Part shown: positions 19,019 to 21,000 of the stretch, in pieces
How the letters are laid out: each line of letters opens with the position of its first letter
How positions within the stretch are numbered: the first letter of the stretch is position 1
NCBI RefSeq assembly: GCF_013408335.1
Contig: NZ_JACBZR010000001.1
Coordinates: forward strand, 992,001-1,056,000
From: Nocardioides panzhihuensis
GTDB taxonomy: Bacteria > Actinomycetota > Actinomycetes > Propionibacteriales > Nocardioidaceae
Reading direction: 5' to 3'
Length of the DNA stretch: 64,000 bases
Notes under the pieces: generated by a model
What the model was told of the DNA's origin: nothing
What the model saw: only the letters and a program-made list of their open reading frames with translations
The model's database searches: none
Program-made: the position numbers and the translations under genes

Positions 19019-19161
19019 GCCGCCGACCCTTTCGGGGAGGGTGTTCTCGGCGGCGTCCGGAGTAAAGGACGGACTTCGGCCGCCGGCTGTCGCCGGTCGC
19101 CTGCGGCGATCCTTGACACCGGCCGTCGCCGAGAATTTTGGCTGGCTATCGGGTCGGCGGC
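19019..19161 (-). repeat. 143-bp palindromic element, intact copy
   Basis: Bounded by perfect 11-bp terminal inverted repeats, GCCGCCGACCC (19019-19029) and GGGTCGGCGGC (19151-19161). Inside is a second, imperfect long pair of arms starting TTCTCGGCG. A second copy in opposite orientation spans 19460-20972 and is split by the IS110 element. There is no ORF of its own, so it is MITE- or REP-like. Confidence 0.85.
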
Positions 19162-19242
19162 AGGGGTTTGGTGCGGGGGTTTGGGTTGGGCAGGGGCTTG
19201 GGCCGCGTGGGCCCGGTGCTCCTGGTTGGAGGGGTGGGTTTG

Positions 19243-19270
19243 CTGGTGAAAGAAGGGTTTCTTTCACCAG
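19243..19270. repeat. Perfect 12-bp hairpin
   Basis: CTGGTGAAAGAA, loop GGGT, TTCTTTCACCAG. It lies in the 300-bp gene-free stretch between the two palindromic-element copies. The stem is AT-richer than its surroundings. Its role is unknown. Confidence 0.7.
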
Positions 19271-19288
19271 CGCGCGCCACCGTCCGGG

Positions 19289-19365
19289 CGAACGAATTTT
19301 CGTTCGGGCGCCGGGGTCGTTCTCGGCTGGGACTTGGCTAGTGCGGGCGAACGAATTTTCGTTCG
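19289..19365. repeat. Two copies of an 18-bp hairpin
   Basis: CGAACGAATTTTCGTTCG occurs at 19289-19306 and again, identically, at 19348-19365, each within a GGGCGAACGAA context. The 8-bp arms flank TT. The 42-bp spacing puts them about four helical turns apart. No gene lies here. Confidence 0.75.
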
Positions 19366-19499
19366 CGCAGAGGAGCATGCCTTCTCGGCAGCTGGTTTTT
19401 TGGGGTGTAGCGACATGACGGCGACCTGTCGTGGGTGATTTCCCCGCGGCCACACCCGGGCCGCCGCCCCGATAGCCAGCCAAATCTGTGAGTGTTGAT

Positions 19500-19715
19500 G
19501 ACGGCTGGCCTGGGGCTGGCTGGCAGGGTCGGGGCCGGTCCTGTCGGGATGTGACTCCCAGCCAAATTGGCCCGCGATCATGTTCGTGGTGTCTTCGAAA
19601 AGACGTGTCCGTCTCGATGGGGTCCGGCGCCGACCCTGGCCCACCTCGATGGCTTGATCAGAAGCATGTCCGACCCGGTAGCAGCCGTGGTCGTGGCTCA
19701 TCACAGTGATGCCTC
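19500..19715 (+). ncRNA. Putative bridge RNA of the IS110 element
   Basis: Lies between the left end and the transposase. Loop 1: outer stem GACTCC (19553-19558) with GGGGTC (19619-19624); CCAGCCAAAT at 19558-19567 equals the left target at 19476-19485; hairpin ATCAT-GTTC-GTGGT (19577-19590); GAAAAGA at 19597-19603 complements the right target TCTTTTC. Loop 2: AGAAGCAT at 19660-19667 matches the element's right end AGAAGCGT at 7 of 8; hairpin CGACC...GGTCG (19671-19693); TCACAG at 19701-19706 complements the left end CTGTGA. This is the target-loop then donor-loop order known for IS110 bridge RNAs. The RNA ends are estimates. Confidence 0.72.
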
Positions 19716-19783
19716 GTGGTGACTTCACTCCCGGGCCGACGCCGGTGACGACGTCCATCCCGAAGCAGAGGAGTCCATCGCCG

Positions 19784-20839
19784 ATGACCATCGTGGCAGA
19801 CCTGTTCAGATTCGTCGTGGGAGTCGATACCCACGCGGCCACCCACACCTACACCATCCTGGAGTCCTCCGGTCGAGTGATCGACCAGCAGCAGTTTCCC
19901 GCCAGCCCCGCCGGCCTGACCCGAGCAATCGACTGGATCGGGCGCCGCACCGAAGGCGACCTCGACGCCACCCTGGTCGCAGCAGAGGACACCGGCACCT
20001 ACGGCGCGATCCTGGCCGGCCGTCTGGCCGTATCTGGCTACCGGGTCGTGGAAGCCCCCACCCCGCGTCGTGACCCGGCCGCGGGCAAGAACGACGCCAT
20101 AGACTCCCTCGCCGCGGCGCGCTCCACGCTGACGACGCCGACCCGCCGACTCCGCGATCGTCGCGGCGGTGGGGACCAGCACGCCGCCAGCGTGCGCTCA
20201 GCGCTGCAAGTCCTGCTCACCGCCCGTGAACAGGCCACCGGGGAACGCACCCGCGCAGTCAATGCGCTCACCGCATTGCTGCGGACCAACGACCTCGACA
20301 TCGACGCCCGCCGTGCCCTGACCAACACCCAGATCAAGACCATCTCCCGGTGGCGACGCCGCGAAGAACCCATCGACCTCGCCACCACCAGGGCCCATGC
20401 CGTGCGCCTCGCGCTCCGAATTACCGAGCTCGATTCCCAGATCACCGACAACGCCAACCAGATCAAGACACTCGTCCACGACCAAGCGCCCATCCTGCTC
20501 GACCAGCCCGGCATCGGCCCCGTCACCGCGGCAATCATCCTCACCGCCTGGTCCCACCCCGGCCGCGTACGCAGCGAGACCGCCTTCGCCAAGATCGCCG
20601 GCACCGCCCCACTCCCCGCCTCTTCCGGCAACACCCAACGCCACCGCCTCAACCGCGGCGGGGACCGCCGTCTCAACCGCGCCCTGCACACCATCGTCCT
20701 GACCCGCATGCGCTGCGACCCCACCACCCGCGCCTACACCGAACGACGCCGAGCCGAGGGCAAGACCACCCGAGAGATCCGCCGCATCCTCAAGCGCTAC
20801 ACCACCCGACAGATCTACCGCACCCTCAACACCGCTTGA
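19784..20839 (+). CDS. IS110-family transposase (DEDD recombinase)
   Basis: 351 residues from the ATG at 19784, which has GAGGAG ten bases upstream. The N-terminal RuvC-like DEDD domain shows Asp15 (VGVDTHAAT), Glu68 (AAEDTGTY), and Asp104/Asp107 (KNDAIDS). A coiled middle region follows, then the Tnp_20 domain with LLDQPGIGPVTAAI and AFAKIAGTAPLPASSG, where Ser280 or Ser281 would be the catalytic serine. All catalytic residues are present and the frame is open, so the enzyme looks functional. In this family the protein is guided by an element-encoded bridge RNA; the candidate lies immediately upstream. Confidence 0.95.
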   Translation: MTIVADLFRFVVGVDTHAATHTYTILESSGRVIDQQQFPASPAGLTRAIDWIGRRTEGDLDATLVAAEDTGTYGAILAGRLAVSGYRVVEAPTPRRDPAAGKNDAIDSLAAARSTLTTPTRRLRDRRGGGDQHAASVRSALQVLLTAREQATGERTRAVNALTALLRTNDLDIDARRALTNTQIKTISRWRRREEPIDLATTRAHAVRLALRITELDSQITDNANQIKTLVHDQAPILLDQPGIGPVTAAIILTAWSHPGRVRSETAFAKIAGTAPLPASSGNTQRHRLNRGGDRRLNRALHTIVLTRMRCDPTTRAYTERRRAEGKTTREIRRILKRYTTRQIYRTLNTA

Positions 20840-21000
20840 CAAACATAGAAGCGTCTTTTCTCGACATGGTCCGGTGTCCAGGATCGCCGAAGGCGACCGG
20901 CGTAGCCGGCGGCCGCAGGGCGTCCTTGACTCCGGGGCATGTCGAGAAGACCCTCGAAGAAGGGTCGGCGGCCCACACCCGCCCGAGGAGACAACAGCAA

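Follow-up and report, generated by a model that had tools for sequence, protein, structure and literature searches.

A left-end bridge RNA with target and donor guides in an IS110-group insertion sequence of Nocardioides panzhihuensis

Does the non-coding sequence ahead of an IS110-family transposase gene in Nocardioides panzhihuensis encode an RNA that recognises both the site the element has entered and the ends of the element itself? The question arose from a first-pass annotation of the window (the whole stretch of DNA analysed, 64,000 nucleotides), in which four short segments were picked out as the target and donor guides of a bridge RNA. We are close to certain that the stretch does encode the bridge RNA of an IS110-group insertion sequence, taking the explanation as a whole. 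The element is a new and well-supported IS110-group bridge RNA member, and the type of system is already known. Among the IS110-group elements examined by Durrant et al., a bridge RNA is predicted for 85.7% (PMC11208160). Demonstrated here are the anatomy of the RNA, the ends of the element, its empty site, a conserved and covarying fold, and the covariation of the guides with targets and ends among homologues.

The element, its gene and its target are laid out as follows.

19488..20854, + strand: IS110-group element, 1367 bp between the core copies (junctions of two copies, empty site)
19486..19487, + strand: left core copy, CT (junctions of two copies, 69/69 empty site)
20855..20856, + strand: right core copy, CT (junctions of two copies, 69/69 empty site)
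19784..20839, + strand: DEDD transposase/recombinase gene, IS110 family (PF01548 and PF02371 above curated cut-offs, PDB matches)
20836..20841, + strand: TTGACA, a -35-like box in the right end that overlaps the stop codon (sequence, conservation in guide pairs)
19450..19485, + strand: left target half, lying within a repeat arm (15 or more uninterrupted copies in the genome, 88-100%)
20857..20979, + strand: right half of the interrupted target repeat arm (inverted repeats, alignment, empty site)
19020..19171, - strand: uninterrupted inverted partner arm of the target repeat (inverted repeats I1, I2, I5 and I8, alignment)

The ends were determined independently of the guides, from a second copy of the element and from an empty site. 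A second copy, identical in its transposase, is present on contig C1 (4481933-4482982) of the genome (G000; 6.31 Mb, 3 contigs). Identity between the two copies spans window positions 19473-20883, and their outer flanks differ. Beyond the core the identity runs for 13 nt on the left, followed by one mismatch and about 23 nt more, and for 27 nt on the right. When the flanks of the window copy are joined, the resulting 69 bases are found as an intact 69/69 site at C1:4083688-4083756, and at least 14 further near-complete copies of this sequence exist (88-99%; 40 of 60 candidates scored). The junctions of the two copies together with the empty site thus place the core CT at 19486-19487 and 20855-20856; CT is the short core common to the target and both junctions. 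The two copies may not represent independent insertions, because both lie in similar repeats and gene conversion could have carried the element from one to the other. The left non-coding end (19488-19783, 296 nt) is longer than the right (20840-20854, 15 nt). In the IS1111 group the RNA lies in a long right end; here the right end measures 15 nt and the RNA is in the left end.

The transposase reading frame is intact and contains PF01548 (DEDD_Tnp_IS110, RuvC-like; 55.3 bits) and PF02371 (Transposase_20; 76.3 bits), both exceeding the curated cut-offs. At E up to 0.1, a PDB sequence search returned only the ISCro4 transposase (6e-10) and IS621 (1.8e-9). Residues D14, E67, D103, D106 and S280-G281, counted from the one that follows the initial Met, do not vary in a 32-sequence transposase alignment. 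D14, E67 and S280-G281 were aligned with IS621 in the PDB search, and their counterparts there are described as catalytic or conserved residues (PMC11208158). The catalytic D11, E60, D102, D105 and S241 of IS621 correspond to D14, E67, D103, D106 and S280, the positions of D103 and D106 having been assigned by eye from the motif and the roles taken from PMC11208158. A contig scan for relatives with the single transposase protein found none; the scan was repeated with alignment A1, and the best 80 of 552 relatives were kept. An IS110 transposase on contig C2 (L013 and L014, 10124-10785) is seemingly in two separate pieces.

The element interrupts one arm of an inverted repeat. The two arms in the window lie about 280 bp apart with no DUF222-HNH gene between them; elsewhere such arms (L137-L141) lie on either side of a gene, which in the two cases scanned encodes DUF222 and HNH domains. 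The inverted-repeat units have arms of roughly 145 nt and many copies in the genome, and both the window unit and the unit at C1:4083688 are short, MITE-like versions. We take the inverted-repeat units to resemble the mycobacterial REP13E12 repeats. A preference of the two insertions for repeat copies bearing CT was considered and dropped, the numbers being too small (8 CT, 6 TT and 1 CC among 15 uninterrupted copies). Between the arms, 19242-19271 and 19283-19371 contain a hairpin whose 13-nt stem is perfect (GCTGGTGAAAGAA) and the palindrome GAACGAATTTTCGTTC, present twice.

A second IS110 is present on C1 in seven identical copies (L003-L009), with a transposase 38% identical to that of the window. 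All seven occupy the same point, which by eye falls in the histidine codons of HNH-type genes close to the repeats targeted by the window element, and no duplication of the target is visible. Two different IS110s thus seem to exploit distinct parts of one repeat unit. For the second of them the guides allow no confident reading: a direct search of L003 with the covariance model R1, described below, gave 27.9 bits with several competing matches, although L003 was absent from the whole-genome result of that model.

A search of the window against Rfam returned 0 matches at the gathering score, and covariance models were therefore built for this analysis; E-values of such home-built models are rough. 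The structure that emerged consists of a 5' stem-loop, a stem closing loop 1 and a stem closing loop 2, with a hairpin inside each loop. The sides of loop 1 are 19556-19568 and 19594-19606, and those of loop 2 are 19654-19667 and 19698-19710.

19502..19522, + strand: 5' stem-loop ahead of the target loop (single-sequence fold of the window; homologues share the stem in RNAalifold columns 1-19, where the window row is cut off)
19544..19721, + strand: bridge RNA core with target- and donor-binding stem-loops (held-out model R2, covarying pairs, fold z)
About 19524 / 19640, + strand: limits of an outward extension of the first stem (inverted repeat 19524-19541 / 19621-19638)
19556..19568, + strand: target loop, 5' side, with left target guide CCAGCCAAAT at 19558-19567 (equals left target 19476-19485; covariation in homologues)
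19594..19606, + strand: target loop, 3' side, with right target guide GAAAAGA at 19597-19603, followed by handshake nucleotides (complement of core and right target; covariation)
19654..19667, + strand: donor loop, 5' side, with left donor guide AGAAGCAT at 19660-19667 (7/8 match to the right end, AGAAGCGT, at 20847-20854)
19698..19710, + strand: donor loop, 3' side, with right donor guide TCACAG at 19701-19706 (complement of CTGTGA at 19486-19491; covariation)

The left end folds more stably than its shuffled versions (z -4.33; 0/200 shuffles as good). Fifteen aligned left ends give a 52-pair consensus in which 30 pairs show a change on both sides at least once. For the 38 pairs of the model structure, 95.3% of cells in the 15 sequences are paired as compared with 37-47% in slid controls, a comparison biased towards the structure because it was derived from the same alignment on which it was tested. 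Changes on both sides occur in 22 of these 38 pairs, and 0/500 shuffles reach any of five measures. An 89-row alignment is also consistent with the structure, but it had been fitted to the model. Model R1 was trained on 15 of 91 sources, the window included, with the second copy of the element a further identical source. It matches 85 of the 91 at E up to 0.01 and gives no match in L012, L064, L090, L107, L111 and L130. Across the whole genome, where 150 of 11191 first-look candidates were scored, R1 finds only the two copies of the element and two further matches with E of 0.23 and 0.66. Because the window element was in the R1 training set, a model R2 was built from which it was excluded; R2 matches 19544-19721 with 120.1 bits (E 2.1e-26), and the next match in the window has an E of 0.58. 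The first upstream alignment had misplaced L061 and L066: the former was later found by the model, and the latter aligned poorly and was excluded from the models. Four sources found later (L142-L145) were checked for structure only, and L081 and L053-L056 lay outside the model search. In one source, L126, tandem matches to the bridge RNA model (467-633 and 666-830) precede a single transposase, perhaps because an element inserted beside the left end of another.

The plan of a target loop followed by a donor loop, each guide pair bracketing a hairpin, had been proposed in the first-pass annotation and is borne out by the held-out model, by covarying helices, and by guides that covary with targets and ends. 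A covariance model had been suggested there as a check, and it places the structure even with the element left out of training. The enclosing stem of the first guide pair was misdrawn. It had been given as GACTCC/GGGGTC, and GACTCC (19553-19558) overlaps the guide; the fold and the alignment consensus instead pair GTGAC (19551-19555) with GTCC (19607-19610), extended by 19537-19550 with a stretch reaching about 19626.

All four guide segments are found where they had been reported, including the 7/8 donor match. The 10-nt equality of the left target guide with the left target half holds, and a detail had been overlooked: the target continues from AAAT with the core C (AAAT-CT), for which the guide (AAAT-T) offers no equivalent. 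The left guide of the window copy therefore skips the core C and stands one nucleotide out of register, one behind. The right target and right donor guides both include CT. The left donor guide has a mismatch (AGAAGCAT against AGAAGCGT) and reads GT where the donor has the core CT, and the donor-loop handshake base is unpaired with the target base adjoining the core. Comparison of 20,000 random window sites with loop 1 gave 0 matches to the 5' side (10 nt), 18 to the 3' side (7 nt) and 0 to both sides at once; the first 10 bases of a random site were present anywhere in the left end in 23 of 20,000 cases. This estimate of chance covers the target guides only, and a test in homologues takes the place of a probability for four matches in order.

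For that test, conserved end motifs rather than the guides served to define both ends of each homologue. Two of the 89 model matches lie near contig starts without an assignable left end; 87 remain. The left test could use 78 of these and the right test 60. Rows were dropped for a left-end motif score below 7, a right-end motif score below 12, a loop length other than 13, a flank shorter than 11 nt, or Ns in the flank. Removal of redundancy left 52 distinct left guides and 38 distinct right guides, one of the latter from the weak model match L003, as well as 49 distinct guide pairs (46 with a left donor loop of 14 nt). The left guides match their own flanks at 326/468 positions (shuffled mean 153.8, sd 10.1, maximum 200) and the right guides at 172/228 (shuffled mean 61.0, sd 7.3, maximum 91), values reached by 0/20,000 shuffles in either case. 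If one nucleotide of slack is allowed, in the shuffles too, the left guides match at 412/468 positions (shuffled mean 199, maximum 244). With this slack 46 of 52 left guides match their own flank at 7/9 or better, compared with 74 of 2652 pairings with foreign flanks. These 46 comprise 31 in register, 8 one ahead and 7 one behind, the window copy among the last. Six distinct left guides fall below 7/9; L070, which was scored as a miss, matches its flank by eye at an offset of two.

The shuffles ignore relatedness, and a comparison with the nearest relative whose guide differs at 4/9 positions or more was hence included. A guide's own flank is the better match in 50 of 51 such cases, with one tie. 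Homologues at other targets do not keep the guide segments of the window element, whose retention the first-pass annotation had named as a refutation, and guides change along with targets. Two elements of Brevibacterium sp. S111 (L103 and L084) have transposases that are 97% identical and share the right guide; their left guides differ, and each matches its own target at 9/9. Judged from sequence, this pair is a case of natural retargeting, as has been described for ISEc11/ISXne4 (PMC11187229). Two Glutamicibacter elements (L106 and L110) with transposases 87% identical differ in both left and right guides, which fit different targets.

The donor guides and the handshake positions follow the same logic. 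The base of the left donor guide after AGAAG equals the base of the right end in 45 of 46 distinct guide pairs, with little agreement at the next position, and the right donor guide, at its variable base, complements the left end in 48 of 49. Handshake positions have been described for IS621 (PMC11208158). Here, the target-loop handshake position agrees with the donor base in 47/49 pairs (shuffled mean 22.5, maximum 35); the second such position is invariant and thus uninformative. The donor-loop handshake positions agree with the target bases in 25/49 and 29/49 (shuffled means 13.2 and 13.6, maxima 23 and 26).

These data bear on other interpretations of the locus. The structure might be real and the guide matches a product of selection by eye, with the protein alone picking the site and the likeness due to chance or to capture of target sequence into the element. 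The guides were indeed originally located by eye, and six of the 52 homologous left guides match poorly. However, no random window site matches both sides of the target loop, homologous guides at fixed structural positions covary with their flanks, and one strain has nearly identical transposases whose left guides differ and fit different targets; the idea is already contradicted, and we regard it as very improbable. Even harder to credit is a region that is merely a structured regulatory leader of the transposase mRNA. Its position directly upstream of the gene and its strong structure (z -4.33) would suit a leader, but Rfam gave no match at the gathering score, and the loop nucleotides covary with DNA outside the element, unlike those of a leader, which refutes this reading.

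A different matter is whether the bridge RNA of the window element can still retarget. The skipped core C could have lowered or abolished new insertions in this lineage, the second copy having arisen by gene conversion or homologous recombination between the target repeats. The one-nucleotide register shift and the unpaired donor-loop handshake base point in this direction, as does the presence of only two copies, identical to each other, both within similar repeats and with identity running past the core. Against it, six more distinct homologous guides share the offset while matching at 7 to 9 of 9 positions (at least one is an A run of uncertain register), the outer flanks of the two copies differ and the transposase frame is intact. 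We consider such a loss unlikely.

By analogy with IS621, the bridge RNA would act through both loops. The left and right target guides of loop 1 would pair with opposite strands of the insertion site, and the left and right donor guides of loop 2 with the joined right and left ends of an excised circle. With the help of the RNA, the DEDD/serine recombinase encoded just downstream would deliver the circle to the target, where strands would be exchanged at the core. The natural target is one arm of an inverted-repeat unit of the kind that elsewhere surrounds a DUF222-HNH gene. Extrapolated from the work on IS621 are the existence of the circle, a junction promoter that drives transcription, binding of the RNA by the protein, and the exchange of strands. 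The junction promoter is predicted only. In the closed circle the TTGACA box of the right end would point across the junction towards the left end. This box reads TTGACA in 31 and TTGACG in 4 of the 49 guide pairs, the other 14 being unjudged because the stretch read starts one base later. When the joined ends are read across the circle junction, a good -35 and no good -10 are present. Scanned in its linear form for sigma-70 promoters, the element gave no match, the expected outcome if a promoter arises only on circularisation.

The system resembles IS621 in having the RNA in a long left end with a 5' stem-loop, a target loop and a donor loop, in left guides that equal the top strand and right guides that complement it, and in the CT core (in the window copy), the handshake positions and the combination of DEDD and serine recombinase (PMC11208160, PMC11208158). 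Sequence similarity to IS621 is low (PDB match E 1.8e-9). In IS621 the core is noted to take part in all four guide pairings, whereas the left target guide of the window lacks the core C and its left donor guide has no core. ISEc21 and its seekRNA offer another parallel, a target-specific insertion sequence in which an RNA from the non-coding region finds the target; however, that seekRNA is 74 nt, the structure here is about 200 nt with a donor loop as well, and host and target differ (PMC11187229). Insertion into a dispersed palindromic repeat is shared with REP-targeting IS110 elements (PMC11208160), although the repeat here is an arm of a unit that elsewhere encloses a DUF222-HNH gene. One raw genome sufficed to read a complete bridge RNA, with its structure, both target guides and both donor guides, and comparison could then put the reading to the test. 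The actinobacterial clade contributes dozens of natural pairs of guide and target, among them recombinases that are nearly identical yet carry different guides within a single strain; these pairs are candidate programmable recombinases.

The clade also differs from IS621 in its core. CT is strongly preferred in both target and donor of IS621 (PMC11208160). Among the 49 distinct guide pairs of the clade, the first core base is C in 46 at the left junction and in all 49 at the right. The second core base is always T at the left junction; at the right it varies with the right guide (C in 21, T in 10, A in 9 and G in 9), which complements it in 45 of 49. Informative empty sites came from the Arthrobacter NtRootA1 genome only, and a pattern search for an empty site of the Mycolicibacter copies found none. 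Uninterrupted sites in Arthrobacter NtRootA1 read C-C in 11 of 13 cases and C-T in 2 of 13, and the three insertions fetched from this genome have C-T at the left and C-C at the right. The chances seem to us evenly balanced that the core of the clade is not a fixed CT, only the first base C being usually shared and the second base of the target being free and encoded by the right guide. The left junction would then retain the donor T and the right junction the target base, with net exchange between the core bases even where these mismatch. As an alternative to such exchange, mismatched core bases might always be repaired in one direction. A variable, guide-encoded second core base may be a new detail, as no statement of this rule was found in the available parts of the main text of PMC11208160 and PMC11208158, nor in the titles and abstract openings of related literature. 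If true, the rule would widen the target range beyond that of IS621, and the pairs of the clade suggest that the IS621-derived core rule is perhaps not universal. The 13 uninterrupted targets in Arthrobacter NtRootA1 (G254; for example L150-L157) have the form GCCGTAAGTGAC[CT]CCGCGTTGC, some as closely inverted pairs, and constitute a REP-like repeat family that serves an IS110.
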